Assembly: GCF_002940685.1 (NCBI RefSeq)
Contig: NZ_PNFP01000007.1
Span: 62,001 to 126,000 of the forward strand
Origin: Ensifer adhaerens
Lineage (GTDB): Bacteria > Pseudomonadota > Alphaproteobacteria > Rhizobiales > Rhizobiaceae
DNA length: 64,000 nt
Direction of reading: 5' to 3'
Shown: piece after piece, positions 9,720 to 27,638 of the stretch
Position numbering within the stretch: the stretch's first letter is position 1
How the letters are laid out: each line of letters begins with the position of its first letter
The notes under the pieces: model-generated
Databases searched by the model: none
Seen by the model: the letters and a program-made list of their open reading frames with translations, nothing else
Told to the model about the DNA's origin: nothing
Translations under genes and position numbers: made by a program

Positions 9720-12410
9720 ATGGAACCACGCCTTTCCCGCTATATCTGGACCCACACGCGCAAGGACCAGCTCTGGATCCTGGTTGTCGTCGCGCTGTCG
9801 ATGATCCCCTACTTCCTGTCCTTCGATCTGCCGAAGCAGATCGTCAACGGACCGATCCAGGGCGATGGCTTCGACAGTCCGGAGGCCACGCAGGCCTTCC
9901 TGGCGATATCCTTTGACCTGCCGTATGTCGGTACGATCAACCTCTTCGACGGATTCCAGCTCGGCCGCGAAGGCATGCTGCTTGCCCTCAGCCTGGTGTT
10001 CCTGGCCCTGGTGGTGGTCAACGGGCTCTTCAAGTTCTACATCAACACCTTCAAGGGCCGGCTCGGCGAACGGCTCCTGCGGCGCATCCGCTTCGAGCTC
10101 GTCGATCGGGTGCTGCGCTTTCCGCCCAGCCACTTCAAGCGTGTGAAGCCGGCCGAAATCGCGACGATGATCAAGGACGAGGTCGAGCCGCTCGGCGGCT
10201 TCACCGGCGACGCCTTCGTCTCGCCCGCCCTGCTCGGCGGCCAAGCCCTGACGGCGCTCGTGTTCATCATCCTGCAGAGCTTCTGGCTCGGGCTGATCGC
10301 AACGCTGATCGTCGCGGTTCAGGCGGTCATCATTCCGCGCATGCGCAAGCGGCTCCTCGTGCTTGGACGCGAGCGGCAGTTGACGGCGCGCGAGCTCTCC
10401 GGCCGCGTCAGCGAAATCGTCGACGGTATCGGCGCGATCCGCGGCCACGACACGTCGAACTACGAGCGCGCCGACATCGCGGCGCGGCTCGGCCGGATCT
10501 TCAAGATCCGCTACGACCTCTACCAGTGGAAATTCCTCGTCAAGTTCATCAACAACTTCCTGGCGCAGGTCACGCCGTTCCTGTTCTATGCGATCGGCGG
10601 CTATTTTGCCCTGCAGGGTCGCCTCGACATCGGTCAGCTCGTTGCCGTCATCGGCGCCTACAAGGACCTGCCGGGTCCGCTGAAGGAACTGATCGACTGG
10701 GACCAGGCCCGTCAGGACGTCCAGGTAAAATATGCGCAGGTGGTCGAGCAGTTCAGCGTCGACACGCTGCTGGATCCGAAGGTCCAGGCGGTCGCGACGA
10801 CCGCTGCCGTGCCGCTCGCCGGCCCGCTTGCCGCCGTCAACCTGACGGTGATCGACGACGGCGGCTCGACCCTGCTCGACCACGTGTCGCTGCAAGTGCA
10901 GCCGGGCGAGAAGGTGGCGCTGATGGGCGGCGGCGAAGTGCTCGCCGAGGCCTTCGGCCGGCTCGTCTGGCCGGCAAGCGGCAAGGTCGTCGTCGGGGGG
11001 CAGGACATTCTGGAAATGCCCGAGTCGGTGACCGGTCGGCGGATCGCCTACGCCTCGTCCGACGTCTACGTCTTCCAGGGCAGTCTCGGCGACAACATCC
11101 TCTACGGGCTGAAACACGCGCCGCTCACGAACCAGGTCTATGAGGGCGAACGCGCATCGCATCGCAAGTGGGAGGTGACGGAGGCAAGGCTCGCCGGCAA
11201 TCCGCATCTCGACGTTGAAAGCGACTGGATCGACTATCAATCCGCCGGCGCGAGCGGGCCGGACGATCTGCTGGTGCAGATCCGGCCGGTTCTCGACGCC
11301 GTGCTTCTGACCAACGACGTCATGGCGCTGGCGGTGCGTTCGACCATCGATCCGCACCGGCACGCGGAGTTTGCCGCTGGTATCGTCGAGATGCGCAGCG
11401 CGCTCCGGCAACGTCTCGAGAAGGAAAAGCTCAGCGATCTCGTCGTGTTCTTCGAGCCCGGGACCTACAATGTCGAGGCGACGATCGGTGAAAACATGCT
11501 CTTCGGCACCATCACCGACCAGGCGATGTGGGCGGATGCGCTCGAGCACCACCCGTTCTTCAAGTCGATCCTGCAACGGGTTGGCCTGCGCGATGCCTTC
11601 TACGAGATGGGCATCGAGATCGCCGAGAACGTCGTCGAACTGTTCCGCGACCTGCCTCCGGATCACCCGTTCTTCCAGCAGCTGACCTTCATGACCGCCG
11701 AGGAAATCCCGGTTTATGAAGCCATCCTCCAGAAGGTCCGCACGAAGGGCAAGGGCGAGGTGTCGGAAGACGATCAGATCAAGGTGATAAGACTGTGCTT
11801 CGATTATATCGAGCCACGGCACCGTTTCGGTCTTTTGACCGACGAGATCATGGCAAAGATCGTGGCCGCCCGGCGCGAGTTCGACGAAGGCTTGCCGGCC
11901 GATCTCGCCGGCATGATCGAGCATTACCGTCCGAACCGCTTCATCGCCTCCGGCAGCATCATTGACAACGTGCTCTTCGGGCGTATCGGTCACAAACACG
12001 CCGACGGCTCGGAGAAAATCCGTGCCATCGTTCGGGATCTCTTCGAGGCGGGTGGCCTCTACAACGAAGTGCTCGCCTTCGGCTTCGACTACAATGTCGG
12101 CGCCGGCGGCAAACGACTGACGGCCGCGCAGCGACAGAAGCTCGACCTTGTGCGCGCGCTGATCCGCAGTTGTGACTACTACATCTTCAATCAGCCGCTG
12201 CTGGCGCTCGACCAGCGCGTCCAGGAGCAGGTCGTCCGCAATGTCTTTGCTATGCTCGATCAGAGCGGGCGAGACCCGGCGATCGTCTGGGTCCTTGCCA
12301 ATCCGGCGCTGACGGACCTCTTCGACCGCGTCGCCCAATTCGAAAACGGTCGCCTGGTGAACGACGCCCATGTGGATGAACGACCTGACTATAAGGAAAT
12401 GGCATCTTGA
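9720..12410 (+). CDS. Degenerate ABC-exporter-like protein (transmembrane domain plus pseudo-ATPase), 896 aa
   Basis: The N-terminal 330 residues look like a type IV ABC exporter membrane domain, with hydrophobic spans near 19-38, 88-110, 175-215 and 280-300. The ATPase domain is eroded at every catalytic site. The P-loop position reads KVALMGGGEVLAEAFG (398-413) without GKS/T. The Q-loop position reads IAYASSDVYVF (442-452). The signature position reads VGAGGKRLTAAQRQ (793-806). Walker B reads YYIFNQPLLALD with N824-Q825 replacing Asp-Glu. The H-loop reads VLANPAL with Asn861 for His. A large insertion contains two extra copies of a D/E-N-x-L-F/Y-G segment. It cannot be a normal ATP-driven pump by known rules. 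The next gene is a cyclic-nucleotide-binding protein 86 bp downstream; the surrounding locus makes polysaccharide. A scaffold or regulator role is inferred. Confidence 0.85.
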   Translation: MEPRLSRYIWTHTRKDQLWILVVVALSMIPYFLSFDLPKQIVNGPIQGDGFDSPEATQAFLAISFDLPYVGTINLFDGFQLGREGMLLALSLVFLALVVVNGLFKFYINTFKGRLGERLLRRIRFELVDRVLRFPPSHFKRVKPAEIATMIKDEVEPLGGFTGDAFVSPALLGGQALTALVFIILQSFWLGLIATLIVAVQAVIIPRMRKRLLVLGRERQLTARELSGRVSEIVDGIGAIRGHDTSNYERADIAARLGRIFKIRYDLYQWKFLVKFINNFLAQVTPFLFYAIGGYFALQGRLDIGQLVAVIGAYKDLPGPLKELIDWDQARQDVQVKYAQVVEQFSVDTLLDPKVQAVATTAAVPLAGPLAAVNLTVIDDGGSTLLDHVSLQVQPGEKVALMGGGEVLAEAFGRLVWPASGKVVVGGQDILEMPESVTGRRIAYASSDVYVFQGSLGDNILYGLKHAPLTNQVYEGERASHRKWEVTEARLAGNPHLDVESDWIDYQSAGASGPDDLLVQIRPVLDAVLLTNDVMALAVRSTIDPHRHAEFAAGIVEMRSALRQRLEKEKLSDLVVFFEPGTYNVEATIGENMLFGTITDQAMWADALEHHPFFKSILQRVGLRDAFYEMGIEIAENVVELFRDLPPDHPFFQQLTFMTAEEIPVYEAILQKVRTKGKGEVSEDDQIKVIRLCFDYIEPRHRFGLLTDEIMAKIVAARREFDEGLPADLAGMIEHYRPNRFIASGSIIDNVLFGRIGHKHADGSEKIRAIVRDLFEAGGLYNEVLAFGFDYNVGAGGKRLTAAQRQKLDLVRALIRSCDYYIFNQPLLALDQRVQEQVVRNVFAMLDQSGRDPAIVWVLANPALTDLFDRVAQFENGRLVNDAHVDERPDYKEMAS

Positions 12411-14419: not shown

Positions 14420-16357
14420 ATGTGCGGTTACGGTGGCTATTTCGGGGCGGTCCCGGAGGCGGAAATCCTTCTCAAGAGGATGGCCGCTGCGATCGCGCAT
14501 CGCGGCCCGGATGAAAACGGCATTCTCGCTGCACCGGAGGCGGGGCTCGCCCATGTGCGGCTGTCGATCGTCGGTCTTGGCGACGGACAGCAGCCGATGT
14601 CCGACGAAACGGGCGATCTTTCGATCGCCTTTAACGGCGAGATCTTCAACTATGTCGAGTTGCGCGAGGAGCTGCGCGCCAAGGGGCGCCGCTTCCGCAC
14701 GACGAGCGACACCGAGGTCATTCTGCACCTTTACGCTGTGATGGGCGAGGATTGCCTGTCCGTACTCAACGGCGACTTTTCCTTCGCGATCTGGGATCGA
14801 CGCCGCCAGCGCATGATGTTGGCGCGCGACCGCATGGGTGTACGCCCGCTGTTTTACACGACCCATGGCGGCACATTCTACTTCGCCTCCGAAATCAAGG
14901 CGCTGCTTCAGGTTCCCGGCATTTCCGCCGAACTCGACCCGGTTGCGCTCGACCAGATCTTTACCCTCTGGGCGCCGATCGCGCCGCGGACGGGCTTTCG
15001 CGACATTCACGAACTCGAACCGGCTCACTTGATGATCGTCGAGAAGGGCAGGACGTCGATCCGCCCCTATTGGCAGCTCGACTATCCTGACCACGACGCG
15101 CCGCCGCTGTTTGCAGATGAGCGTAGCGCGGCTGAGGAATTGCGCGCCCTCCTCACCGATGCAACCCGGATCCGCATGCGGGCCGACGTGCCCGTCGGCT
15201 CCTATCTCTCAGGCGGGCTCGACAGCTCCATCGTCTCGGCTCTGGCGGCGGGAATGACGCCCCAGGGGCTGCGCACGTTTTCCGTGACCTTCGATAGCGT
15301 CGAGCACGACGAGAGCGCCTTTCAGATGGAAATGGCGACAGCGCTCGGCACGCATCACAGTGCGGTTGCCTGTCGCGCCGGCGACATCGCGAAGGTCTTC
15401 CCGCAGGTCATCCGTTTCGCGGAACGGCCGATCATCCGCACCGCGCCGGCACCGCTTTACCAGCTCTCGGGCCTTGTCCGCGAACAGGGGTTGAAGGTGG
15501 TGCTGACGGGCGAGGGCGCCGACGAGGTCTTTGCCGGATACGATATCTTCAAGGAGGCGCGGGTACGCCGTTTCTGCGGTCGCCAGCCCGGCTCGCGGAT
15601 CCGCCCGCACTTGTTCCGCAAGCTCTATCCCTATCTGCCGGGCCTGCAGCAGCAATCGGCGGAATATCTCGCTGCCTTCTTCGGCGCCGGCGACGTGCCG
15701 CTCGACGATCCGTTGTTTTCGCATCGTCCGCGGTTCAAGAGCACGGCCGCGACCAAGATCTTCTTTTCTCCGGACCTGCGCGCCACGCTGAAGAATTACG
15801 ACGCGGCGGAAGATCTGGCGAGCCGGCTTCCGGCTGCCTTCGGTCGCTGGCATCCGCTGCACCAGGCGCAGTATCTCGAAAGCCGCTTCCTTCTGCCCGG
15901 ATACATTCTCTCCAGCCAGGGCGACCGCATGGCCATGGCGCATGGGATCGAGGGGCGTTTCCCGTTCCTCGACCATCGCCTCGTCGAGTTTGCGACGCGC
16001 CTGCCGCCGGAAATGAAACTGAAGGGACTTGTGGAGAAGCATATCCTGCGCGAGGCGACGAAGGATCTGCTACCTGCGACGATCGGTCAACGCACCAAGC
16101 AGCCCTACCGCGCACCCGACAGCCACTCCTTCACCGGCCCCGGTGAACTCGATTACGTTCGCGATGCGATGGGCGAGACGCGCATCGGCGACAGCGGCCT
16201 GTTCAATGCCAAGGCCGTGACCAAGCTCTATGAAAAATGCCAGTCGCAACCGGCGACCGGCTTCAGGGACAACGCCGCCTTCGTCGGTATCCTGTCGACG
16301 CAGCTCTGGCTGCAGACCTTTACCGGCACCAGCATCCGCGCCGCTGAAGCGGCCTGA
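14420..16357 (+). CDS. Asparagine synthase-family amidotransferase (glutamine-hydrolysing), 645 aa
   Basis: Class II glutamine amidotransferase fused to an ATP-dependent synthetase. MCGYGGYFG puts the catalytic nucleophile at Cys2 after Met removal, and FNGEIFNYVELREEL is the glutaminase-side motif. The synthetase domain has the PP-loop SGGLDSS at residues 264-270. Normal AsnB proteins are about 550 aa; this one is nearer to the 600-650 aa AsnB relatives found in polysaccharide loci that amidate acyl or sugar groups. It is followed 23 bp later by an acyl carrier protein gene, then an AMP ligase and a NAD synthetase-like gene. That context argues for a dedicated modification pathway rather than bulk asparagine synthesis. 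The symbol asnB/asnO would be by similarity only. Confidence 0.88.
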   Translation: MCGYGGYFGAVPEAEILLKRMAAAIAHRGPDENGILAAPEAGLAHVRLSIVGLGDGQQPMSDETGDLSIAFNGEIFNYVELREELRAKGRRFRTTSDTEVILHLYAVMGEDCLSVLNGDFSFAIWDRRRQRMMLARDRMGVRPLFYTTHGGTFYFASEIKALLQVPGISAELDPVALDQIFTLWAPIAPRTGFRDIHELEPAHLMIVEKGRTSIRPYWQLDYPDHDAPPLFADERSAAEELRALLTDATRIRMRADVPVGSYLSGGLDSSIVSALAAGMTPQGLRTFSVTFDSVEHDESAFQMEMATALGTHHSAVACRAGDIAKVFPQVIRFAERPIIRTAPAPLYQLSGLVREQGLKVVLTGEGADEVFAGYDIFKEARVRRFCGRQPGSRIRPHLFRKLYPYLPGLQQQSAEYLAAFFGAGDVPLDDPLFSHRPRFKSTAATKIFFSPDLRATLKNYDAAEDLASRLPAAFGRWHPLHQAQYLESRFLLPGYILSSQGDRMAMAHGIEGRFPFLDHRLVEFATRLPPEMKLKGLVEKHILREATKDLLPATIGQRTKQPYRAPDSHSFTGPGELDYVRDAMGETRIGDSGLFNAKAVTKLYEKCQSQPATGFRDNAAFVGILSTQLWLQTFTGTSIRAAEAA

Positions 16358-16380
16358 AACCCATTGGGAAAGGAAATGAA

Positions 16381-16647
16381 ATGACGGAAACGATCAAGGA
16401 TAAGGTCAGGGCCTTTGTCATCGAGAACTTCCTGTTTGGCGATTCCTCTTACGATCTCGCCGACGGTGCCTCGCTGATCGAGAACGATATCATCGATTCG
16501 ACCGGCGTTCTCGAACTCGTCGCCTTCATCGAGGACCAGTTCGGCATCGCCATGGCTGACGCCGACATCGTGCCCGCGAACCTCGATTCGCTCGCGCGCA
16601 TCTCGGCCTTCATCGAGGCAAAGGCCGGAGTGCCGGCCACGGCCTAA
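16381..16647 (+). CDS. Acyl carrier protein, 88 aa
   Basis: Small acidic four-helix carrier. The phosphopantetheine attachment Ser40 is in LIENDIIDSTGVLELVAFIE, the DS-x(4)-EL pattern of carrier proteins. AGGAAATGAA precedes the ATG as ribosome site. It is a specialised carrier, not the housekeeping AcpP: the attachment motif is DST rather than DSLD, and the gene lies between an amidotransferase and an AMP-forming ligase. The ligase probably loads an acyl or aminoacyl group onto it. That the carried group is then amidated or transferred to the polysaccharide is inference. Confidence 0.9.
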   Translation: MTETIKDKVRAFVIENFLFGDSSYDLADGASLIENDIIDSTGVLELVAFIEDQFGIAMADADIVPANLDSLARISAFIEAKAGVPATA

Positions 16648-16667
16648 CCAAGACCCGAGGGCGTCCC

Positions 16668-18215
16668 ATGCGGTTCGAGCAATTTCTCATCGGCAATGCG
16701 GCAAGGCATGCGGCCAAGACGGCGCTGGTCACCGATCGCAGGCGCCTCAGCTACGGCGAGTTCGACGACCTGTCGAACCGGCTGGCGGCCGCGCTGGCAA
16801 GGGCAGGCGTCAAGCGCAACGACCGCGTCCTCGTGTTCATGGACAATTGCTGGGAGGCGGCCGTCTCGATCTTTGCGATCCTGAAGGCGGGTGCGACCTT
16901 CAGCCCGATCAACGCCTCGACCAAGGCCGACAAGCTCGCCTATATCATCGACGACTGCGAGGCGGCCGCGATCCTGACTCAGGCCAAGCTGATGCCGGTG
17001 GTGACCGAGGCGCGCGGCCAGAGCGGCAAGGCGGATATCTTCGTCGCGTCGACCGCAGCACCCAATGGCCAGTCGCCCGCAGGCGCAGTGTCCTTCGAAG
17101 ACTGCCTGTCGGCCGAGGCGACGCCGGTGCCGCATGGCGGCATCGACGTCGATCTGGCGATGCTGATCTACACGTCCGGCTCGACCGGGCGCCCGAAGGG
17201 CGTGATGATGACCCACCGCAACATCGATGCGGCGTCGGAATCGATCACCACCTACCTGCGCAACGAGCACGACGATATCATCCTCAACGTGCTGCCGCTC
17301 GCCTTCGACTATGGTCTCTACCAGTTGCTGATGGCGATCCGGCTCGGTGCGACGCTGGTGCTCGAGAAGTCCTTCGCGTTTCCGCATGCGATTTTCGAGC
17401 GTATTCGCGAGGAGGGCGTCACCGGCTTCCCGCTGGTGCCGACGATGGCGGCGATGATCCTGCAGATGCGTGACCTGGAGCCCGGTTTCCTGCCGAGCCT
17501 GCGCTACCTTTCCAATACCGCTGCCGCCCTGCCGCCGCCGCACATCGCGCGCCTCCGCGAGCTCTTTCCCGGCGCACGGCTCTATTCGATGTACGGGCTG
17601 ACGGAATGCAAGCGCTGCACCTATCTGCCGCCGGAGGAGCTTGATCGCCGGCCGGGTTCCGTCGGCATCGCCATCCCCAATACGGAAGCCTTCGTCGTCG
17701 ACGACGAGGGTAGCCGCGTGCCGCCGGGCGTTGCCGGCGAACTCGTCATTCGCGGACCGCACGTGATGCAGGGCTACTGGCGCAACGACGCGGCGACCGA
17801 GCGCATGCTGCGGCCCGGCCCGAACCCGTGGGAAAAGGTGCTCTATACCGGCGACCTCTTCCAGACGGACGAGCAAGGTTTTCTCTATTTCGTCGGTCGC
17901 AAGGACGACATCATCAAGACCCGCGGCGAGAAGGTCGCGCCGAAGGAAGTCGAGACCGTGCTGCATGCCCACCCCGGCATTGCCGAGGCCGTCGTCATCG
18001 GCATGCCGGATCCGGTTCTCGGCCATGCGATTGCCGCGCTGGTGGTGCGCACGGATCCTGATTTGACCGACAAGGACATCATTCGCCACTGCACCCGCCA
18101 CCTCGAAGATTTCATGGTGCCGAAGATCATCGAATTCCGCACCGAACTGCCGAAAACGGATACGGGCAAGGTCAGCCGCCGCCTTGCCGCCGAGACGATG
18201 GAGCCAGCACAATGA
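16668..18215 (+). CDS. AMP-forming acyl/aryl ligase (class I adenylate-forming enzyme), 515 aa
   Basis: Activates a carboxylic acid as its adenylate and transfers it to a thiol. Core motifs are present in order: LIYTSGSTGRPKGVMMTHRN (A3/P-loop, about residues 166-185), SMYGLTECKR (A5), LYTGDLFQTDEQG (A7), GRKDDIIKTRGEKVAPKEVE (A8 hinge) and LPKTDTGKVSRR with the A10 catalytic lysine. The gene begins 20 bp after the carrier protein stop, and its own stop overlaps the next gene's ATG by 4 bp. The likely thiol acceptor is the adjacent carrier protein. The acid is unknown. Confidence 0.92.
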   Translation: MRFEQFLIGNAARHAAKTALVTDRRRLSYGEFDDLSNRLAAALARAGVKRNDRVLVFMDNCWEAAVSIFAILKAGATFSPINASTKADKLAYIIDDCEAAAILTQAKLMPVVTEARGQSGKADIFVASTAAPNGQSPAGAVSFEDCLSAEATPVPHGGIDVDLAMLIYTSGSTGRPKGVMMTHRNIDAASESITTYLRNEHDDIILNVLPLAFDYGLYQLLMAIRLGATLVLEKSFAFPHAIFERIREEGVTGFPLVPTMAAMILQMRDLEPGFLPSLRYLSNTAAALPPPHIARLRELFPGARLYSMYGLTECKRCTYLPPEELDRRPGSVGIAIPNTEAFVVDDEGSRVPPGVAGELVIRGPHVMQGYWRNDAATERMLRPGPNPWEKVLYTGDLFQTDEQGFLYFVGRKDDIIKTRGEKVAPKEVETVLHAHPGIAEAVVIGMPDPVLGHAIAALVVRTDPDLTDKDIIRHCTRHLEDFMVPKIIEFRTELPKTDTGKVSRRLAAETMEPAQ

Positions 18216-19222
18216 ACATCAGAACAACCGGGGGCGCCGGCCCGTTTTCGGCCGAAACCCTGACGATCGACCATGCGGTCGAGACCGATCGCATCGTTGC
18301 GGCGCTGCGCGAGCAGTTGCGCTCCATGAAGAAGCGCGGACTGGTGCTCGGGCTTTCCGGCGGCATCGACTCCAGCGTTTCCGTCGCGCTTGCGGTGCGC
18401 GCCGTCGGTGCCAAGAACGTCTTCTGCCTGTTCATGCCGGAAAACGATTCCGATCCGGAAAGCCTGCGCTTCGGCCGGCTGGTCGCCGAAACCTTCGGCG
18501 TCGAGGCGATCGTCGAGGATATCGGACCGGCGCTGAAAGCCATGGGGTGCTATGAGCGCCGCGACGCCTTCATCCGCGAACTGGTTCCGGACTATGGCGA
18601 CGGATGGGCGTCAAAAATCGTGATCGCCAACGCCCTGGAAGGTGAGGGCTACAACATATCTTCGCTGGTGGTGCAGAGCCCCGAGGGCGTGCAGTCGAAA
18701 CACCGTATGCCGCCGTCGGTCTATCTCGGCATCGTCGCCGCCACCAACATGAAGCAGCGCACCCGCAAGCAGGTCGAGTACTACCATGCCGACCGCTTGA
18801 ACTTCGCCGTGCTCGGCACGCCGAACCGGCTGGAATACGACCAGGGCTTCTTCGTCAAGAACGGCGACGGCGCTGCCGACGTCAAGCCGATCGCCCATCT
18901 CTACAAGTCACAGGTCTATGCGCTTGCCGCCCATCTCGGCGTTCCCGAGGAGGTTCGCCGTCGCCCGCCGACGACCGATACCTATTCGCTGGAGCAGACG
19001 CAGGAGGAGTTCTATTTCTCCCTGCCTTACGACCGCATGGACCTCTGCCTCTATGGCCTCAACCACGGGATCGAGATCGAGGCCGTCGCCAAGGCGGCCG
19101 GCTTGACCGTGGTCCAGGTCGAAAGGGTCTGGGCGGACATCGCGGCCAAGCGCAAGGCGACGCGTTACCTGCATCTCGGACCGCAACTGGTGCGGCCGGT
19201 GGAGGAGATTGCCGGATACTGA
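18212..19222 (+). CDS. nadE: NAD(+) synthetase-like ATP pyrophosphatase, 336 aa
   Basis: Ammonia-dependent NAD synthetase family: ATP-dependent amidation of a carboxyl group via an adenylate. The PP-loop SGGIDSS is at residues 49-55. Family segments LGTPNRLEYDQGFF and HLYKSQVYALAAHLGVP are present. At 336 aa it is longer than bacterial NH3-dependent NadE (about 275 aa) because of an insertion around residues 130-185, and it lacks the nitrilase domain of glutamine-dependent forms. Being the last gene of the amidotransferase/carrier/ligase operon, it may have a specialised amidation role rather than, or besides, NAD synthesis. The symbol reflects family only. Confidence 0.8.
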   Translation: MNIRTTGGAGPFSAETLTIDHAVETDRIVAALREQLRSMKKRGLVLGLSGGIDSSVSVALAVRAVGAKNVFCLFMPENDSDPESLRFGRLVAETFGVEAIVEDIGPALKAMGCYERRDAFIRELVPDYGDGWASKIVIANALEGEGYNISSLVVQSPEGVQSKHRMPPSVYLGIVAATNMKQRTRKQVEYYHADRLNFAVLGTPNRLEYDQGFFVKNGDGAADVKPIAHLYKSQVYALAAHLGVPEEVRRRPPTTDTYSLEQTQEEFYFSLPYDRMDLCLYGLNHGIEIEAVAKAAGLTVVQVERVWADIAAKRKATRYLHLGPQLVRPVEEIAGY

Positions 19223-19247: not shown

Positions 19248-20360
19248 TCAATCGAAGCTGCCGCCGATCAACCGGCTCCAATGCTCGCCGGCAATGCCGT
19301 TGAAGAAGCCCTGTCCGTCGCGGCAGGCTTCGACGATGGTCTGGTCGCGCGAATGCACGACGGTCGAGGCGACATGCACGAAGGCGATGCGCCGGCCGAG
19401 CATGGCCTCCATCAGCGCCGGCTGCGTGCGTCCGCGCAAGCCCGCAAGACCGCGCCTCGACGCCGCGTCGATCAGGCAGTCGATGACCGGTCCTGCCTGC
19501 CCCGGGCGCGCCAGGATCTGCAGCACTCGGCCGACTTCAGACGCCCTGGCGTAGTAGGCGAAGGCGCCGACCACGGCGCCGGTGCGGGCTGTCACCAGTG
19601 CGTAGACGAGTTCGCCTTGCTCCGGCTTCTGCTCGGCATCGGCAAGGATGTGATTGAGTTGGCCGTTGCTCCACTCGGGCCGAAGGGAAAACTGCGCAGT
19701 GAACTGATCGACGACCGCGGCAAAGCCGCTGCGGTCGGTTTCGGCCGACGTGAAGCCCGCCGGTGCAGCGCCCGCCTCTGGCAGGGCGGACCAGCGCTGT
19801 TCGCCCTGGCCCATGCGCTTGCGATAGAACGTGTCGAGCGCGCGCGCGAAGGGCGCGGCGAGCCGGGCGGGCTTGATGCGGTTCGAGGCGACGCTCAGGC
19901 TGAAGGTCGCGGGACGGATGACGCGCACCCAGTCGAGGCTGTACTGCGGCAGAACCACGCCGCGAAGCCGCGTCCACATCTGCACCGAAACTTCGCTTGC
20001 CGTCTCGCTAAACGACAGATCCTGCGCACCGGAAAGGAATGCCTTCATGAGGCGCGCGCCGGCCAGGGGATCGCTCTCGCGGTCTTCCGCCATCAGCGAC
20101 CCGCAGATCGCCGCGCGCAAGTGTCGGCCGTTCAGTGTCATGGGCAGCGCATTGACGCCGACGAAGCCGGTAATCCGGCCCTCGTCGTTCACATGCACCA
20201 GAGGTCTGATTTCCGGATCACAGCCTGGCCCTTCGAGATAGAGCTGCCGCATGTAGTCGGCGAGCGCGGGCGAAGCGGCCCGCTCGTCGCGGAACACCCG
20301 CTGGAACATTCCGGCGACGGCTGGAACGTCCGCGTTTTCTAGCGAACGGATTTCGCTCAT
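19248..20360 (-). CDS. Double GNAT-domain acyltransferase-like protein, 370 aa (paralogue of 22614)
   Basis: The N-terminus, MSEIRSLENADVPAVAGMF, has the start of a GNAT fold, with a beta-strand core LVHVNDEGRITGFVGVNALPMTLNG near residues 51-75, quoted in part. A second GNAT-like half follows after about residue 200 (GELVYALVTARTGAVVGAFAYYAR). Length, order and the closing segment GEHWSRLIGGSFD match the product at 22614 (SESWSRLLTDF), so the two are paralogues. The start overlaps the stop of the upstream minus-strand methyltransferase by 4 bp. The acyl donor and acceptor are unknown; modification of polysaccharide precursors is inferred from locus. Confidence 0.72.
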   Translation of the reverse strand: MSEIRSLENADVPAVAGMFQRVFRDERAASPALADYMRQLYLEGPGCDPEIRPLVHVNDEGRITGFVGVNALPMTLNGRHLRAAICGSLMAEDRESDPLAGARLMKAFLSGAQDLSFSETASEVSVQMWTRLRGVVLPQYSLDWVRVIRPATFSLSVASNRIKPARLAAPFARALDTFYRKRMGQGEQRWSALPEAGAAPAGFTSAETDRSGFAAVVDQFTAQFSLRPEWSNGQLNHILADAEQKPEQGELVYALVTARTGAVVGAFAYYARASEVGRVLQILARPGQAGPVIDCLIDAASRRGLAGLRGRTQPALMEAMLGRRIAFVHVASTVVHSRDQTIVEACRDGQGFFNGIAGEHWSRLIGGSFD

Positions 20361-21097
20361 CGAGACTGCTCTGCGGTGCCGGTCGCTGCCGGGCCGTCGA
20401 TTTTCTGGACGATGGCGACGCGCGGCTTGCCGTCCCGGTCGGTCGCGAAGGTGACAGGCGCGTAGGCTTTCGCCCGTGAGAGGAGGGCAGCCGCCTGCCG
20501 CTCCTGGCCCTCGCCGAACTCGAACAACAGCCAGCCTCCCGGCTTCAGGAAGGCAAGGGCGTCGCGGATCAGGCGCTGATGGATGGAAATGCCATAGGGG
20601 CCGCCGTCGAAGGCTTCCCGCGGCTCGTTGTCGAGCAGATGCGCCCTGTCTCCCTCCAGCCGGCCGGTCGAGATATAGGGCGGATTGCAGACCACCATGT
20701 CGACCCTGCCTTGGAGCGCGTCGCCTTCAAGCGCCGCGAAAAGATCGCCCTGCCGGATCGAAACGCGCGACCCGAGACCGAGCCGGTCGACATTGCGGCG
20801 GGCAAGCGCCACGGTGCTGTCCGTCAGGTCCGCGCCCCAGACGCTTGCCGACGGGATCTCGCTGGCGATACCGAGTGCAAGATTGCCGGAACCGCAGCAC
20901 ATGTCGATGATGGCGACGTCCGAGAGGCCCCCTTCAAGGAGCGATACGGCCCTTCTCCCAAGAAGCTCGGTTTCTTCCCGCGGAACCAGGACGTCGGGCG
21001 CAAGTTCCAGTTCGACACCCATGAACCGGTGCAGTGTTGCGGCCCGGTCTTCGGTCGGTCGGTCGGTCGGATTGCTGTCGTTTTGCGCCACGGCCAC
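20357..21097 (-). CDS. PrmC/HemK-like N5-glutamine methyltransferase family protein, 246 aa
   Basis: SAM-dependent methyltransferase. It shows the HemK-type lead LVPREETELLGRRA (about residues 37-50), motif I IIDMCCGSGNLALG (63-76) and catalytic NPPY at 138-141. These motifs methylate glutamine or adenine amide/amino nitrogens. It lacks the N-terminal helical domain of full PrmC (about 280-290 aa), so it is probably not the housekeeping release-factor enzyme. It is co-transcribed with the double-GNAT gene (4-bp overlap) and divergent from the flippase. An amide nitrogen made by the neighbouring amidotransferase would be a fitting substrate, but this is speculative. Confidence 0.78.
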   Translation of the reverse strand: MAVAQNDSNPTDRPTEDRAATLHRFMGVELELAPDVLVPREETELLGRRAVSLLEGGLSDVAIIDMCCGSGNLALGIASEIPSASVWGADLTDSTVALARRNVDRLGLGSRVSIRQGDLFAALEGDALQGRVDMVVCNPPYISTGRLEGDRAHLLDNEPREAFDGGPYGISIHQRLIRDALAFLKPGGWLLFEFGEGQERQAAALLSRAKAYAPVTFATDRDGKPRVAIVQKIDGPAATGTAEQSR

Positions 21098-21304: not shown

Positions 21305-22624
21305 ATGGCTTCGGAAGGTGTGAAGGAACGCGCGCACAGACCGTTCCTCTCGATGATCTTATCCTATGCTGCATCGGGCGGCAGCCTCGTCATTGGCTCG
21401 GCCGCGCAGCTCCTGACCTTTGCTATCCTCGCGCGCTTTCTCGGCGTGCACGAATTCAGCGTCTTCGTCGCAATCACCGCCGTTGCCAACATCGCGGTTC
21501 ACCTATGTGGCCTCGGCGCGATGGAGTGCCTGGTGCGCCGCGTCGCGCGCGACCGCGGCATGTACCCGCAGATGCTCGGCCACAACATCATCCTGACGGC
21601 GGCAAGCGGTGTGCTGCTGGTGGTGCTTGGCGCGGCGGTGTTGCCGTTCTTCTTCACGCTCTCGCCCGATCCGGTGACCAACATCGCGGTGATCACCTTG
21701 ATGCTCGTGACCAACGTCATCTTCGTGCGGGTCATCGTGCTGGCCGAGCAGATCTTTCTTGCCCATTCCAACTTTGCCTCGGCCAACAAGGTGGTCGTCG
21801 GTTTCGCCCTGGCGCGCACCATTGCCGCAGCGCTTGCCTGCATCGCCTTCGGGGTCGCGACGGTCGCCTCCTGGGCCGTTTGGCAGTTCATTTGCCACGT
21901 GATCGTGGCGCTTGGCTGCTGGTGGGCGGTCAAGGGGCTCGGGCGTCCACGCTACGGCATCGTGCGCGAAGAACTGCCGCTGGGGCTCTATTTCAGCATC
22001 CCGTTCATCCTGCGCGCCGTGCGGCAGAACGCCGACCTTCTGGTCCTGAGCCTGGTGGCGAGCGCCGAGGTGATGTCCAGCTACAGCGTCGCCCGGCGCA
22101 TGCTGGAGAGCAGCTACCTGTCGGTCGAGGCCCTGAACCGGCTGATCTATCCCGGCTCGGCAAAGGCGACGGCGGCCGGCCTGCACCATGCTTTCGAGCG
22201 CGTGCGCAAGGTGCTGTTTGCCGCCACCTCGATCAGTATCGCCGCGGCCGTCGCCGTCTTCGTGCTGGCGCCGGTCCTGCCCTATCTCTTCGGCAGGGAC
22301 TACGTCTCCCTCGTTTCCTTCGTCCGCATCCTGTGCTGGGTCGTGGTGCCGATTGCCATGTGGTCGGTGGCGATGGAGGCGCTTGGCGCTTCCGGCCACC
22401 ATCCGGCGCGCGCCTCTGTAATGGGGCTTGGCAGCGTGCTCGGCGCCGCGCTCACCGCCTGGGCCACCTGGTACGCACCGCCGGCCGGCACCTTCATCTC
22501 CTTCTACGTCATCGAGATCGCGATGGTGATCGTCTCCTGGGCCGTCTTCCTGCGCTTCGTGCGGCGCGATCGGGAACAGGCCAGCGCCGCGCCCTTGTCG
22601 ACGGGGGTAGCGCATGGAGGCTGA
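21305..22624 (+). CDS. Polysaccharide flippase (Wzx / PST family), 439 aa
   Basis: Integral membrane exporter of lipid-linked repeat units across the inner membrane. It is hydrophobic throughout, with about 12 spans. The first is FLSMILSYAASGGSLVIGSA, with FLGVHEFSVFVAITAVANIA following, the usual Wzx/MATE-like start. A conserved mid-protein segment ELPLGLYFSIPFILRAV begins the second bundle. The gene opens the main right-hand transcription unit of the locus. The next gene starts 11 bp before its stop. It depends on glycosyltransferases made elsewhere in the cluster. Confidence 0.85.
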   Translation: MASEGVKERAHRPFLSMILSYAASGGSLVIGSAAQLLTFAILARFLGVHEFSVFVAITAVANIAVHLCGLGAMECLVRRVARDRGMYPQMLGHNIILTAASGVLLVVLGAAVLPFFFTLSPDPVTNIAVITLMLVTNVIFVRVIVLAEQIFLAHSNFASANKVVVGFALARTIAAALACIAFGVATVASWAVWQFICHVIVALGCWWAVKGLGRPRYGIVREELPLGLYFSIPFILRAVRQNADLLVLSLVASAEVMSSYSVARRMLESSYLSVEALNRLIYPGSAKATAAGLHHAFERVRKVLFAATSISIAAAVAVFVLAPVLPYLFGRDYVSLVSFVRILCWVVVPIAMWSVAMEALGASGHHPARASVMGLGSVLGAALTAWATWYAPPAGTFISFYVIEIAMVIVSWAVFLRFVRRDREQASAAPLSTGVAHGG

Positions 22625-23762
22625 ACTCGGGAAAATCCAGGCCGCAAGGTCGCAGGGGCGGGAACTATCCCGGACGGGCAACGTCCGCGCCATGGAGCCC
22701 CGGGACATCCCCGCCGTCAGCGGCATGTTCACCCGGATCTTTCGCAAGCGCGAGCAGGAGGCGAGCCAGGAACTCCGGCAATATGTGGAGACCATCTTCT
22801 TCGGGAGCCCGCTTTACGCTCCGGAGAACGGTAGCATCGTCTATGACGACGGGACCGGCGGCATCGGCAGCGCCATCCTGGCGATCCCCATGGAGTTCTC
22901 GGTCAACGGCCGCCGGACGGTGGCGAAACTTCTCTGCGCCTTCATGTCCGAAGGCAAGGCCGGCGCGGTCGGCGCGGCCTGCCTGGCGCGCGCGATGCGG
23001 GCGACGCGGCAGGACATGTGCTTCTCCGACAACTCGTCCCCGGTAAGCGCCGATCATTGGGTCGCGGGCGGCGGCGTCGTGCTTCCGATCCAGAGTCTCG
23101 ACTGGCGCCGCTCCTTCCGGCCATTCAAGGCCTGGGGGCTGACGGTGGGGCGGCGCGTGCGCCCGCTCCGCTCCTCTTTCCTTTCCAAGCCGCTCGCCCT
23201 TGCCGACCGGTTTCTGCGTCACCGTCGCCCCCGCACCAAACCCGACGCCGCGGCCGGCTGCACGACGCACGCCATCGAGCCCGCTGCCTTCCTGGACCTT
23301 GCCGAACCGATGCTGCAGCGATTTGCGGTCAGGCCGGTCTGGTCGCGCAGCGAGTTCGACTGGCTGGTCGCGGTTGCGCGGCTGAACACGCCGCTTGGCG
23401 ATCTTCTCTGCCGGGAAGTACGTGACGAAAGCGGACGCGTCATCGGCGCCTATCTCTATTTCGGCAAGGCCGGTGAGAGGGCGACGGTGCTCAACGTCGT
23501 CTGCGAGGCCGGCCGCGAGTTCGACGTCACCGCACAGATGTTCCATGCGCTCGACGCCGAGGGCTATGCGCTTGCCATCGGCAGTTCGCAACCCTTCCTC
23601 ATGAATGCGATTTCGCGCCAGAGGTGGCTTTCGTTCCACCATCGCGGCTACTTCTGCATGGTGACACGGCATGCGGATCTGAAAGACGCCGCCCAGCGCA
23701 ACGATATCTATGTCGGCGGCCTGGCATCGGAGAGCTGGAGCCGGTTGCTCACCGACTTCTGA
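22614..23762 (+). CDS. Double GNAT-domain acyltransferase-like protein, 382 aa (paralogue of 19248)
   Basis: Same architecture as the minus-strand protein at 19248. NVRAMEPRDIPAVSGMFTRIF aligns with SLENADVPAVAGMFQRVF, PMEFSVNGRRTVAKLLCAFM with PMTLNGRHLRAAICGSLM, and the terminal SESWSRLL with GEHWSRLI. A second GNAT-like half (LLCREVRDESGRVIGAYLYF) lies after residue 250. It overlaps the flippase gene by 11 bp, so it is probably co-translated with it. Two diverged copies facing away from each other across the PrmC-like and flippase genes suggest two related acyl transfer steps. Activity is inferred from fold only. Confidence 0.72.
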   Translation: MEAELGKIQAARSQGRELSRTGNVRAMEPRDIPAVSGMFTRIFRKREQEASQELRQYVETIFFGSPLYAPENGSIVYDDGTGGIGSAILAIPMEFSVNGRRTVAKLLCAFMSEGKAGAVGAACLARAMRATRQDMCFSDNSSPVSADHWVAGGGVVLPIQSLDWRRSFRPFKAWGLTVGRRVRPLRSSFLSKPLALADRFLRHRRPRTKPDAAAGCTTHAIEPAAFLDLAEPMLQRFAVRPVWSRSEFDWLVAVARLNTPLGDLLCREVRDESGRVIGAYLYFGKAGERATVLNVVCEAGREFDVTAQMFHALDAEGYALAIGSSQPFLMNAISRQRWLSFHHRGYFCMVTRHADLKDAAQRNDIYVGGLASESWSRLLTDF

Positions 23763-23816: not shown

Positions 23817-23889
23817 CTAATTCTGCGATAGAAGGCGGCTCGCGGGGTCACGATCTTCGCGTCTTGATGGGCGTGCGTGAGGGATGCTT

Positions 23890-25530
23890 ATGTATAGGCC
23901 GGACGAGGCCGGAAAACAGGGAGCCAGCCAACTGGCGCGCGAGCAGCGCGCGCCGGTCGAACGAGGCTCGTTGCTCGATCTGCTTTCGTCAGACCTCCAG
24001 GAGGCGAAGCCGGCCGCAGAAGGATCCGCAGCGGGCGGATCGGCCGAGGTTCAGCGTCAATCCAGGGATATTCCAAATGCGGCGACGCGTCGGGCGGACG
24101 TGGCTCGGCCAGTGGCCGCCGCGACCGACGGGCGTCGCGACAGCTACTTTCCCGGCTTGAGCGGCCTCAGCAGAATCGGCATCGACGATATCATCGGCTG
24201 GTTGCGCGATGGGCTCCTCTGGATCGTCCTCGCCCTCGTCCTGTGTGTGGGCGCCGCGCTCGCCTATGCGATGACGGCGACACCCCGCTATACGGTCTAT
24301 ACCGATATCGTCGTCGATCCCTCCAACCTCAATGTCGTCAGCGACGACGTCTTCACCACCAATCCGCAGCGCGATGCGCAGTTGCTGGAGGTGGAAAGCA
24401 AGCTGCGCATCCTGACGTCGCGCAACGTGCTGTCGCGGGTGATCACGCAACTGCGCCTCACCGAGGATGCGGAATTCGTGAAGCCCTCCGCCTTCAGCTC
24501 GCTGAAGAACCTCTTCTCGTCGAAGGCGGAGCAGCAGGCCGGAAACGAGCTCGCCGCCATGCGGGCGCTATCCGAGCGGGTGGAGGCCCGTCGCGAAGAA
24601 CGGTCCTTCGTGGTGGTGATGAAGGTCTGGAGCGAAGAGGCGGCGAAGGCGGTGACGCTGTCGGATGCCATCGTTGCGGCCTTCGAACAGGAGCTGTTTC
24701 AGTCCGCCGCCGAGAGCGCCGGTCGCGTCGCGCAGAGCCTCAACGCGCGGCTCGACGAGTTGCGCCACAACGTCACCGAGGCGGAGCGCGCGGTCGAGGA
24801 TTTCCGCCGCAAGAACGGCCTGCAATCGACCAATGACGGACAGCTCGTCAGCAATCAGCTTTCGAATGAACTCAACACCCAGGTTCTCGACGCCCAGCAG
24901 CGCTTCATCCAGGCCGACACACGCTACCGACAGATGAACGACGCGATTGCGCAAGGGCGGACGGCCAGCGCCTCGGAATTCGAATCCGTCAACATGACGA
25001 ACCTGCGCGAGCAGTACAACGTGCTGCAGCAGCAGATCGCCTCCATGCAGCGTACCTATGGCGAGCGCCACCCGCGTCTCGTCAGCGCGCGCTCGGAGCG
25101 CGCCAACCTGGAAGCGGCCATGGCCGACGAGGCTCGCCGTATCCTCGACCGCGCCAAGGCGGACATGGACCGCGAGCAGCAGGCATTCGCTGCCTTGCGC
25201 GCCAAGGCGAGCGACGAGAAGTCGAACGTGTTTTCGGACAATGAGGCCCAGGTGCAACTGCGCGACCTCGAAAGGGATGCCCGCGCCAAGGCCGCCATCT
25301 ACGAAACGCATCTCGCGCGCGCCCAGCAGATCACCGAACGCCAGCAGATCGACACGACCAACGTGCGCGTGATCTCGCGTGCCTTGCCGCCGAATGCGCG
25401 CAGCTGGCCGCCGCGTACCGTGGTTCTGGTCGCCGGTGCGGGCGTCCTGGGGCTCATTCTCGGCATATCCCTCGCGCTAGCCCTCGGTCTGTGGAGGTAC
25501 ATCCGTCGTCCGCAGCCCCTGGCCCCGTGA
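23890..25530 (+). CDS. Wzz/GumC-type polysaccharide chain-length protein without kinase domain, 546 aa
   Basis: Inner-membrane co-polymerase. A roughly 100-residue cytoplasmic, low-complexity N-terminus leads to TM1 (ILWIVLALVLCVGAALAYAM, in part, about residues 112-132). The Wzz domain follows (ATPRYTVYTDIVVDPSNL), then a long periplasmic coiled coil (about 255-480) and TM2 near 515-535 (VLVAGAGVLGLILGISLALAL). The protein ends 10 residues after TM2 with no Walker motifs or tyrosine tail, so it lacks the BY-kinase of ExoP/Wzc and no separate kinase gene is in the window. I prefer ATG 23890, 6 bp after GAGGG; ATG 23884 is in frame. It probably sets polymer length with the polymerase encoded 13 bp downstream. 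Confidence 0.87.
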   Translation: MYRPDEAGKQGASQLAREQRAPVERGSLLDLLSSDLQEAKPAAEGSAAGGSAEVQRQSRDIPNAATRRADVARPVAAATDGRRDSYFPGLSGLSRIGIDDIIGWLRDGLLWIVLALVLCVGAALAYAMTATPRYTVYTDIVVDPSNLNVVSDDVFTTNPQRDAQLLEVESKLRILTSRNVLSRVITQLRLTEDAEFVKPSAFSSLKNLFSSKAEQQAGNELAAMRALSERVEARREERSFVVVMKVWSEEAAKAVTLSDAIVAAFEQELFQSAAESAGRVAQSLNARLDELRHNVTEAERAVEDFRRKNGLQSTNDGQLVSNQLSNELNTQVLDAQQRFIQADTRYRQMNDAIAQGRTASASEFESVNMTNLREQYNVLQQQIASMQRTYGERHPRLVSARSERANLEAAMADEARRILDRAKADMDREQQAFAALRAKASDEKSNVFSDNEAQVQLRDLERDARAKAAIYETHLARAQQITERQQIDTTNVRVISRALPPNARSWPPRTVVLVAGAGVLGLILGISLALALGLWRYIRRPQPLAP

Positions 25531-25543
25531 GAGGGCGGCCATC

Positions 25544-26875
25544 GTGCCCGATGTCTACGGCAGCCCGGCCAGTTCTGCAGAAACCTTGAGGGTCCGCATA
25601 GGAACCTTCCTGTTCCTGGCCATTTCCATCTACTACTGGGTCCCCTTCCATTCCTTCGTCGACCTGACCAGGGAAAGCCTGCTGGAGCCCGGCGGCGACA
25701 ATTCCAACCGGCTGAACCAGATCGTTGCGCTGTTCCTCTTTGCAGTCGCCTCCTGCTACGGTGTGCTGCATCCGATGCGACGCGGGCTGATGCAGCCGCG
25801 GGCGCTGCTGGCTGTCCTGCTTCTGTGGGCGCTCTTTGTCTGCCTGGTCTCGGCTCATCCGGCCAACGGTATCAAGGCGATCATCCTGACGACGATGGTC
25901 GCGGTCAACGCCAGCGTCTATCTTCTGCTGCCGGCAAACGAGCGCCATTTCGCCAAGATGCTGGCGATCTCGACGCTCGTCATGCTCGCGGTGGCCTATT
26001 ACGGCGTTCTGTTCAAGCCGCTCTTGTCCATTCACCAGGCCAACGAAGTGCTGGAGCCGATGCATGCGGGGCTGTGGCGTGGCCATTTCCGTCACAAGAA
26101 CGACGCTGCCGTCGGCATGGTCCTCGCCTCGTTCATCGGTCTCTTCGTCCTCCACCGGTGGTCGAAGCTTGCCGGTCTGGCGATCGTGGGCCTAGCCTTC
26201 TTCTTCCTCATCCACACGGGAGGAAAGACTTCGACGGCAATGCTGCCGGGCATCCTGCTGTTGGCATGGCTCTTTGAGCGCGTGCGCCTGCTGCGCATCC
26301 CGATCGCTATCGGCGGCGTGGCTCTCTTCAACCTGTTTGCAGTCGGTTCCGCCGTCATCCGGCCGCTCGGCGAATTCGTTTCGTCGCTCGGCATCGACGC
26401 GACGTTTACGAACCGCGCCGATGTCTGGCGCTTCGCCTTCACGGTGATCGCAGACCAGCCATTTATCGGGCGCGGCCTCAAGGCGTTCTGGCAGACCGAG
26501 GAAGTGGTCTTCAGCGGCGGCAGTGTCGAGACCTGGGCCGTTCGCGCGGCGCATGCCCACAATTCCTATCTCGAGACGCTTCTGGTGATCGGCATCCCTG
26601 GACTGCTGCTCACGCTTACTTGGCTGATGGCGCTGCCTCTCTACCATATCTCGCGCATCCCGCCGGCCCGGGAGCACAGCGACCTCACGCGGCTTTTCCT
26701 GCGGATCTGGCTCTACGCGATCTACAGCGCCAGCCTCGAGGCCTTCTTCTTCGATGGTCCGAATGTGCTGTGGTTCTCTCTGCTTTTTGCGATCTGCGGC
26801 TTGCGCCTGCAGTCTTCGGCAGTACTTGCAACCGAGCCACGCCCGCTCGGACAAAGGATGGTGGCGCATGCCTAG
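25544..26875 (+). CDS. O-antigen ligase / Wzy-type polymerase family membrane protein, 443 aa
   Basis: Polytopic membrane protein with about 11-12 spans, starting at GTG 25544. The Wzy_C/WaaL-type region is visible: GLWRGHFRHKNDAAVGMVLA before a span, then a large periplasmic loop with RADVWRFAFTVIADQPFIGRG and HAHNSYLETLLVIGIPGLLL, each a hallmark of this superfamily. Because it sits with a Wzx flippase and a Wzz-type protein, a polymerase joining repeat units is the better reading than an O-antigen ligase. The stop overlaps the next gene by 8 bp. Confidence 0.85.
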   Translation: MPDVYGSPASSAETLRVRIGTFLFLAISIYYWVPFHSFVDLTRESLLEPGGDNSNRLNQIVALFLFAVASCYGVLHPMRRGLMQPRALLAVLLLWALFVCLVSAHPANGIKAIILTTMVAVNASVYLLLPANERHFAKMLAISTLVMLAVAYYGVLFKPLLSIHQANEVLEPMHAGLWRGHFRHKNDAAVGMVLASFIGLFVLHRWSKLAGLAIVGLAFFFLIHTGGKTSTAMLPGILLLAWLFERVRLLRIPIAIGGVALFNLFAVGSAVIRPLGEFVSSLGIDATFTNRADVWRFAFTVIADQPFIGRGLKAFWQTEEVVFSGGSVETWAVRAAHAHNSYLETLLVIGIPGLLLTLTWLMALPLYHISRIPPAREHSDLTRLFLRIWLYAIYSASLEAFFFDGPNVLWFSLLFAICGLRLQSSAVLATEPRPLGQRMVAHA

Positions 26876-27638
26876 CATTTCTCAGGCTCTGACGCGGGTC
26901 GACGGCCTTGTCGACCGTATCGCCAACCGGCTGATCTGGCGGTTCGCCGCGAAACCCCGCGACGTCAGGACCGACGCGCCGCTTGTCTCCTTCACCTTCG
27001 ACGACGTCCCGGACACAGCGCTTCACAACGGCGCCTCGATTCTCGAACGTCATGGCGTGCGGGGTACGTTCTACATCGCCGGCGGGCTTTCGGGGCGCGT
27101 CGAACCGGATCGCACCCTGATCTCGCCGGAGGGCTGCGCCGATCTCGCCGACCGGGGGCACGAGGTCGGCTGCCACACCTATTCCCATAGCAAGATCAGG
27201 CGCTTGGGCGGGGGCGGGCTTGCCCGAGACCTTGACCGCAACGCCGCCTATCTCAAGCAAAGCGGCGTCGGGCCGGCGGCAACGAACTTCGCCTTTCCCT
27301 ATAACGCCGCCTGGCCGTCGGCTCGCCGGGAACTGGGGCGGCGCTACCGCACCTGCCGCGCCGCAGGCGAAAGCGTCAACCGCACGGCCGTCGATCCGCT
27401 GATGCTGAAGGCCGTCGAAATCCGGCAGCCGGAGACGGACGCCCGGTCGCTCACGGGCTGGATCGACGATGTCGTTGATCGGCCAGGCTGGCTCGTCTTC
27501 TTCACCCACGACATCGCCGCCCGCCCCACGCCCTACGGATGCACGCCCGAGACGTTCGAACACCTGGTTCGCTATGCGGTTGATAAGGGCTGTGTCGTGT
27601 TGCCCGTCGAGCAGGCGCTTGACCGGCTCGGCTGGTAG
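26868..27638 (+). CDS. Polysaccharide deacetylase family (CE4) protein, 256 aa
   Basis: NodB-homology enzyme that removes N- or O-acetyl groups. I start it at ATG 26868, overlapping the polymerase stop by 8 bp; the upstream extension is antisense-like filler. The metal triad is readable: TFDD (Asp46 metal, Asp45 base) and HTYSH (His103, His107). The C-terminal motif is LVFFTHDI. No signal peptide is evident, so it may act in the cytoplasm or be exported by an unseen route. The gene is 10 bp ahead of a GT4 glycosyltransferase in the same operon. Deacetylation of a polysaccharide precursor is inferred. Confidence 0.86.
   Translation: MPSISQALTRVDGLVDRIANRLIWRFAAKPRDVRTDAPLVSFTFDDVPDTALHNGASILERHGVRGTFYIAGGLSGRVEPDRTLISPEGCADLADRGHEVGCHTYSHSKIRRLGGGGLARDLDRNAAYLKQSGVGPAATNFAFPYNAAWPSARRELGRRYRTCRAAGESVNRTAVDPLMLKAVEIRQPETDARSLTGWIDDVVDRPGWLVFFTHDIAARPTPYGCTPETFEHLVRYAVDKGCVVLPVEQALDRLGW

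Follow-up and report, generated by a model that had tools for sequence, protein, structure and literature searches.

A probable acid-activation and amidation module with a predicted tandem-GNAT acyltransferase, found beside polysaccharide genes in Ensifer adhaerens

In a 64,000-nucleotide stretch of an Ensifer adhaerens genome (hereafter the window; G000:C66:62001-126000, genome size 7.5 Mb), four consecutive genes encode an AsnB-like amidotransferase, an acyl carrier protein, a stand-alone adenylating ligase and a NadE-like amide synthase, and two further genes follow on the opposite strand (Table 1). By the NadE-like protein, the nearest named relatives are Ensifer adhaerens megaplasmids (96–97%). 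The initial annotation had described the four genes as spaced 20–25 base pairs (bp) apart or overlapping, and as one biosynthetic module in which a ligase and carrier pair is joined by two amide-forming enzymes. The open reading frames lie where it placed them, with gaps of 23 bp between asnB and acp and 20 bp between acp and the ligase gene and a 4-bp overlap between the ligase and nadE-like genes, and the module itself is supported by the linkage described below.

The family matches are to Asn_synthase (E value 3.1e-96) and a glutaminase domain (2.1e-46) for AsnB, AMP-binding (6.4e-99) for the ligase and NAD_synthase (2.2e-48) for the NadE-like protein; the carrier protein stays below the Pfam cut-off (PP-binding, 16.2 bits versus 20.8) and among NCBIfam models comes closest to one for an ornithine-lipid carrier (54 bits, cut-off 130). 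Active-site residues are conserved: Cys2, Arg47, Asp97 and the SG.(L/I)DS motif of AsnB in all 141 rows of an alignment made from 141 AsnB proteins plus that of the window, at least one AsnB having been dropped by length; Ser40 of the carrier protein in all 110 aligned rows, window included, the remainder of the 148 collected carrier proteins plus that of the window having been removed by a length filter; and the SGG and Asp/Ser positions of the NadE-like PP-loop in 150 of 150 rows. Compared by pairwise alignment with the P. horikoshii-type NadE of PDB 2e18, the NadE-like protein has a middle segment that is 53 residues longer (70 versus 17).

Table 1 Genes of the module and of the neighbouring polymer locus in the window (aa, amino acids).
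Feature	Position	Strand	Basis or remark
asnB-like glutamine-dependent amidotransferase, 645 aa	14420-16357	+	active-site residues conserved in the glutaminase domain and in the synthetase domain
acp, acyl carrier protein, 88 aa	16381-16647	+	phosphopantetheine site Ser40 (Asp39-Ser40)
Stand-alone adenylating AMP ligase, 515 aa	16668-18215	+	VinN-type pocket Asp214, Tyr215, Thr284, Lys315, Arg316
NadE-like (PRK00876/NF002048) ammonia-dependent amide synthase, 336 aa	18212-19222	+	without glutaminase domain
Fifth gene, tandem-GNAT acyltransferase, N-myristoyltransferase/Eis fold, 370 aa	19248-20360	-	predicted structure and co-occurrence
Sixth, optional gene, PrmC/HemK-like amide N-methyltransferase paralogue	20357-21097	-	NPPY motif; 4-bp overlap with the GNAT gene
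Wzx-like flippase	21305-22624	+	polymer-locus context
Second tandem-GNAT, 32% paralogue of 19248-20360	22614-23762	+	context
Wzz-like chain-length protein	23884-25530	+	context
Wzy/O-antigen-ligase-like protein	25544-26875	+	context
Polysaccharide deacetylase, HfsH-like	26754-27638	+	below cut-off; context

To place the operon in a wider context, we assembled 149 loci: 50 from a family search, that of Sinorhizobium meliloti 1021, six from further plasmid records, 12 from a phylum-wide sample, and 80 drawn from a species-level genome collection, the last being the best 80 of at least 582 places at which relatives of the NadE-like protein are encoded there. These loci are not independent, as the sets overlap and one genome can appear twice. 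All four core genes fall within 7 kb in 140 of the 149, with median spacings of 20, 21 and −4 bp (n = 135, 136 and 137 loci), and this four-gene linkage is far beyond chance. It holds across differing gene orders (asnB-acp-lig-nadE, nadE-asnB-lig-acp and asnB-lig-acp-nadE) and in each of the 12 loci retrieved from the phylum-wide sample. Among 247 genomes of the family, 51 have a NadE-like protein over its cut-off and 50, all of them among these 51, a module-type AsnB (at least 793 bits, the next separate matches scoring 443 and 418). In G047 and G140 the operon lacks asnB, but an AsnB at 72–73% is encoded on another contig. The pairwise distances of AsnB, the NadE-like protein and the GNAT protein introduced below correlate at 0.87–0.89 (108 loci, without species-tree control).

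Some copies stand out individually. Left out of the 149-locus table because its NadE-like score is too low, L092 (G059:C2) is a second and apparently decaying copy, its asnB match being split in two and its nadE-like match interrupted by a stop; the same genome, G059, also has an intact-looking copy on a different contig. A record titled Bacillus subtilis SK6B4 (L173) encodes a NadE-like protein 72% identical to that of the window among rhizobial-type neighbours, and this assembly is probably misnamed or contaminated. The NadE-like family reaches the archaea, with the PRK00876 subfamily over its cut-off in a control genome, Methanosarcina acetivorans. Phage copies of the gene were rejected, as a phage search gave 30 records with weak NadE-type matches, none spanning more than 80% of the query.

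The fifth and sixth genes, on the minus strand just downstream, were missed in the initial annotation. For the 370-aa product of the fifth, GNAT and N-myristoyltransferase family matches are all sub-threshold, a single-sequence search of the PDB found no relative and a profile search only weak ones (best E value 0.14, an N-myristoyltransferase), so that the assignment was decided by the structure model. This AlphaFold model has a predicted local distance difference test (pLDDT) score of 93.5 and, in Foldseek, matches N-myristoyltransferase best (E value 6.8e-14, template modelling (TM) score 0.51), with Eis2 at a TM score of 0.58; as modelled, the protein is a tandem-GNAT N-acyltransferase fold. 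A homologue is found within 7 kb in 115 of the 149 loci. Across the 247 family genomes, 47 have a GNAT match of at least 200 bits, all among the 51 module carriers and none among the other 196 (the next genome scores 168 bits), and on this co-occurrence we count the GNAT as part of the unit, also at loci where several kilobases separate it from the other genes. Taken together, we consider it highly probable that these genes form a linked module for activation, amidation and transfer.

The sixth gene, present within 7 kb in 52 of the 149 loci, encodes a paralogue of the release-factor methyltransferase PrmC: it scores 176.3 bits with TIGR03534, below the cut-off of 199.1, the housekeeping PrmC elsewhere in the window genome scores 253.8 bits, and the NPPY motif is kept in 53 of 53 PrmC-like rows, window included. 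PrmC methylates the amide nitrogen of a glutamine, and an amide methyltransferase next to two amide-forming enzymes is suggestive, although no more than that.

The ligase offers a view of the substrate. When its residues 205–350 are compared with the PDB, VinN scores 103 bits and the next entry 43, with 56 of 139 residues identical in the aligned stretch and D214/D230, Y215/F231, T284/S299, K315/K330 and R316/R331 as aligned pairs. The VinN members of these pairs are described as the recognition set for a beta-amino acid and 3-methylaspartate (PMC11253843), and the window ligase has the same type of pocket, that is, an Asp, a bulky next residue, a Ser/Thr and a Lys-Arg loop (TECKR in both proteins). 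Besides the window ligase, 88 of 146 module ligases have all five residues (one of 147 was dropped from the alignment by length), compared with none of 30 rows matched by TIGR03098, a related ligase family considered below; 26 of the 30 exceed the cut-off of that model, and five, probably taken from a wrong reading frame, fail to align in this loop. Every one of the 146 ligases has Arg316 and Tyr215. Asp214 varies together with Lys: in its place the remaining ligases have Thr, Gly, Asn, Ala or Ser, and most of these lack the Lys. From these alignments we read two substrate classes, in which Arg would hold a second carboxylate in both and an amino group would be held in one. We consider a second carboxylate on the substrate more likely than not, and for the class of the window ligase we give an aspartate-type acid an even chance on the pocket residues. 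Of 89 Asp-class loci, 52 have the PrmC-like gene within 7 kb; of the 57 others, none does. The earlier suggestion of an amidated acyl or amino-acyl substituent can be sharpened to an aspartate-like group, as inferred from the ligase pocket.

Part of the module is already in the literature. The S. meliloti 1021 plasmid pSymB (L107) carries the same four genes in the same order, at 84, 89, 88 and 86% identity for asnB, acp, ligase and nadE-like, respectively, but there the genes for the GNAT, the PrmC-like protein and Wzx are found some 10 kb off, whereas they adjoin the operon in the window. We infer that this locus, in a record without annotation, is the SMb20650/SMb20651 operon. Its content was reportedly given by Ramos-Vega 2009 as asnB-SMb20651-SMb20650-nadE1. 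SMb20650 is described as cotranscribed with the carrier gene smb20651 and as acylating holo-SMb20651 in E. coli, with no acyl group named (PMC7232532), and the function of SMb20651 is said, in a passage of another paper, to need further study (PMC5686131). In the openly licensed PMC literature, we found no paper that proposes an aspartate-like substrate or treats the gene set as a system. What is known, then, is an apparent orthologue operon, a partly published orphan module; new here are its GNAT and PrmC-like genes, the strict co-occurrence across genomes, and a VinN-type pocket in ligases that fall into two classes.

We propose the following scheme, which as a whole we rate at slightly less than an even chance. 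The ligase would adenylate an acid with a second free carboxylate and load it on the carrier protein, the substrate most likely being aspartate or 3-methylaspartate, taken through its beta-carboxyl as a beta-amino acid. AsnB, fed by glutamine, and/or the NadE-like enzyme, fed by ammonia that AsnB perhaps releases, would then convert the free alpha-carboxylate of the tethered unit to a carboxamide; that the amide is formed on the carrier-bound unit is a tentative step, which we rate a little lower than the scheme as a whole. In the ligase class of the window the PrmC-like enzyme may N-methylate this amide. The tandem GNAT would finally take the completed acyl group off the carrier protein and attach it to an amine; in the window a plausible acceptor is an amino sugar of the polymer, and elsewhere it would be a different one. 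The closest parallel is vicenistatin biosynthesis, where VinN loads the activated unit on VinL and VinO then decarboxylates it (PMC11284099). Both systems pair a stand-alone ligase with a stand-alone carrier protein; two amide-forming enzymes stand here in place of a VinO-type decarboxylation, and no pyridoxal-phosphate (PLP) decarboxylase was seen among the reading frames scanned around the module. In its widest form, the scheme would describe a new, widespread carrier pathway in which a beta-aspartyl or 3-methyl-beta-aspartyl carrier is amidated at the alpha-carboxylate, N-methylated in one class and used by the GNAT to acylate amines of glycans or other acceptors, a second class having turned to a diacid that lacks an amino group. 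We regard this generalization, which would make the pathway an amidation counterpart of the VinN-VinL-VinO decarboxylation route, as rather unlikely.

A polymer acceptor is suggested by the surroundings. The module sits in a polysaccharide locus, with glycosyltransferases and an ABC protein upstream and with Wzx, Wzz, Wzy, a deacetylase and a further glycosyltransferase downstream, and a paralogue of its GNAT (32%) is part of that locus. Aspartyl and N-acetyl-aspartyl groups are described on amino sugars of bacterial glycans (PMC10609480), so that, chemically, the polymer is a reasonable acceptor in the window. The Caulobacter holdfast acyltransferase HfsK, with two tandem GNAT domains as in the window protein, is thought to modify polysaccharide; the likeness is one of domain layout. 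HfsK is reported to be nearest to FemX in fold, whereas the window GNAT is nearest to N-myristoyltransferase and Eis by Foldseek (PMC5362036 for HfsK). The polysaccharide is a possible acceptor, though we would not expect it to be the one. The earlier proposal that the module serves the polymer is consistent with its position here, but three of six annotated plasmid records, those of Nitratireductor, Rhizobium ACO-34A and Shinella HZN7, list no glycan gene around it in gene tables that are incomplete, and because of such copies the polymer is at most one of several acceptors.

These plasmid records speak against the polymer as a general acceptor, and further observations count against the scheme. 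The amino-binding Asp is absent from 57 of the 146 module ligases, so a VinN-like use of aspartate cannot hold for every copy. We therefore no longer take this A4-motif residue to prove an amino-acid substrate for the entire family, and keep the claim for the window's class. A global fold search of the ligase model did not have VinN among the 50 matches listed and was uninformative for singling it out. At 7 kb the GNAT is absent from 34 of the 149 loci, and 4 of the 51 carrier genomes have no GNAT match at an E value of 1e-30. The association of the PrmC-like gene with the Asp class comes down to few independent events on the ligase tree (4 and 7 changes), where starred branches hold two independent pairs (sign test, p 0.5–1), and we dropped it as an independent statistical link. 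Finally, AsnB exceeds the cut-off of the asparagine synthase model TIGR01536 (505 bits versus 267.1) and the NadE-like protein that of NF002048, the PRK00876 NAD(+) synthase subfamily (531.8 versus 313), so that by sequence both could still perform ordinary asparagine and NAD synthesis.

Taken at face value, the last two scores would make the operon a meeting of two primary-metabolism enzymes, an asparagine synthetase and an additional, ammonia-dependent NAD synthetase, with a fatty-acyl ligase and its carrier protein, and it speaks for this that the window AsnB is the sole complete Asn_synthase match of its genome and that the NadE-like catalytic residues are intact. However, only about one-fifth of the family genomes carry the two enzymes, nearly always together, a separate NadE is encoded in the window genome (a 578-aa frame on C34, 252.7 bits), so that the NadE-like protein would not be needed as the NAD synthetase of the cell, and the latter, although far over its subfamily cut-off, is joined by asnB, acp and ligase in every one of the 12 phylum-wide loci retrieved. 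The ligase, besides its VinN-like pocket, was rejected as a fatty-acyl enzyme, as it scores 397.3 bits with PRK06187, below the cut-off of 476, and its S. meliloti counterpart SMb20650 is described as unable to replace FadD and inactive on long-chain fatty acids in vivo (PMC7232532). We consider this explanation very unlikely; neither AsnB nor the NadE-like protein looks like a housekeeping gene product. It is also improbable, to our minds, that the product is a small molecule, secreted or kept in the cell (an amidated N-acyl amino acid serving as osmolyte or signal, for instance), akin to N-acetylglutaminylglutamine amide (NAGGN), with the polymer genes as mere neighbours. Stand-alone five-gene units do exist, an acyltransferase is part of the unit, and AsnB matches the NAGGN amidotransferase model TIGR03104; the score of 379.2 bits is below its cut-off of 570.1, on which we rejected the NAGGN pathway itself. 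Against a small molecule, clustering of 850 proteins from 51 loci and the window gave no constant transporter neighbour, and within the genus and its near relatives the module stays with wzx, wzz and wzy.

The initial annotation had compared the set with exosortase A (XrtA) loci while remarking that no exosortase was visible. There is a likeness: TIGR03098, the ligase family of XrtA/PEP-CTERM exopolysaccharide loci, is the best NCBIfam model for the ligase (464.2 bits), TIGR03108, the corresponding amidotransferase family, is second best for AsnB (437.5 bits), and the pocket Asp and Arg are common to both ligase groups (25 of the 30 TIGR03098-matched rows, where aligned). Both scores are nevertheless below the cut-offs (592.35 and 816.9), and a profile comparison with the XrtA families therefore does not place the window enzymes in them; the XrtA loop also has a Phe where the window ligase has Lys. 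In a ligase tree of 86 module rows and 14 XrtA rows, the latter picked by length and a TEAFRS loop and the whole carrying a long-branch warning for L124–L126, the module ligases are set apart on a branch with a Shimodaira–Hasegawa-like approximate likelihood ratio test (SH-aLRT) support of 100. The remark on the exosortase extends genome-wide, as PF09721 has no match anywhere in the window genome; it has matches in 3 of 63 carrier genomes and beside the module in none, the exosortases and the module of G065 being on different contigs of a fragmented assembly. No XrtA-type decarboxylase over cut-off was found in the window genome, where TIGR03099 gives two matches on another contig, the best at 211.8 bits versus 478.45. 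A PF07589 search for PEP-CTERM proteins carries no weight either way, as it matched nothing in the window genome and nothing in any control genome. Shinella zoogloeoides XJ20 has the module although a passage of PMC9012009 describes it as without a PEP-CTERM cluster. An exosortase A-type set is not supported. A diverged relative of the exosortase A genes that decorates only the polymer of this locus would suit the flanking glycosyltransferase, Wzx, Wzz, Wzy and deacetylase genes, and in one distant genome the module (L126, G520:C13) lies inside an XrtA-like exopolysaccharide locus (TIGR03007, 279.8 bits versus 278.85; TIGR03006, 390.6 versus 276.2), yet that genome has no exosortase match, and with the separate ligase branch and the copies lacking listed glycan genes nearby we hold this to be improbable as well. 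Of the initial annotation, the activation and amidation core is retained, the exosortase framing is given up and the polymer framing is possible without being general.

Should the carrier-bound amidation scheme be correct, the database names asparagine synthase, NAD synthase and fatty-acyl ligase would mislead for these genes, an orphan operon in print since 2009 would gain a testable substrate hypothesis, and tethered amidation would add a new way of tailoring surface glycans or small molecules. Where inspected, the NadE-like relatives, encoded at 582 or more places, are accompanied by the other three core genes.

A few observations concern the neighbourhood. For the deacetylase of the polymer locus the closest model is that of holdfast HfsH (182.8 bits, below a cut-off of 400), a hint that the polymer may resemble an adhesin. 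At the end of this locus, 31578-34109 encodes an 843-aa protein with a sub-threshold cellulase match (E value 0.011), homologues of which adjoin the module in L078 and L081. Upstream, at 9720-12410, an 896-aa protein combines matches to an ABC membrane domain and a split ATPase and lies beside a cyclic-nucleotide-binding protein, which is an unusual arrangement. In two plasmid records minCDE is close to the module, at 21556-23479 of L108 (S. meliloti RCAM1115, which differs from the window in this respect) and at 6098-7941 of L112 (Rhizobium ACO-34A).

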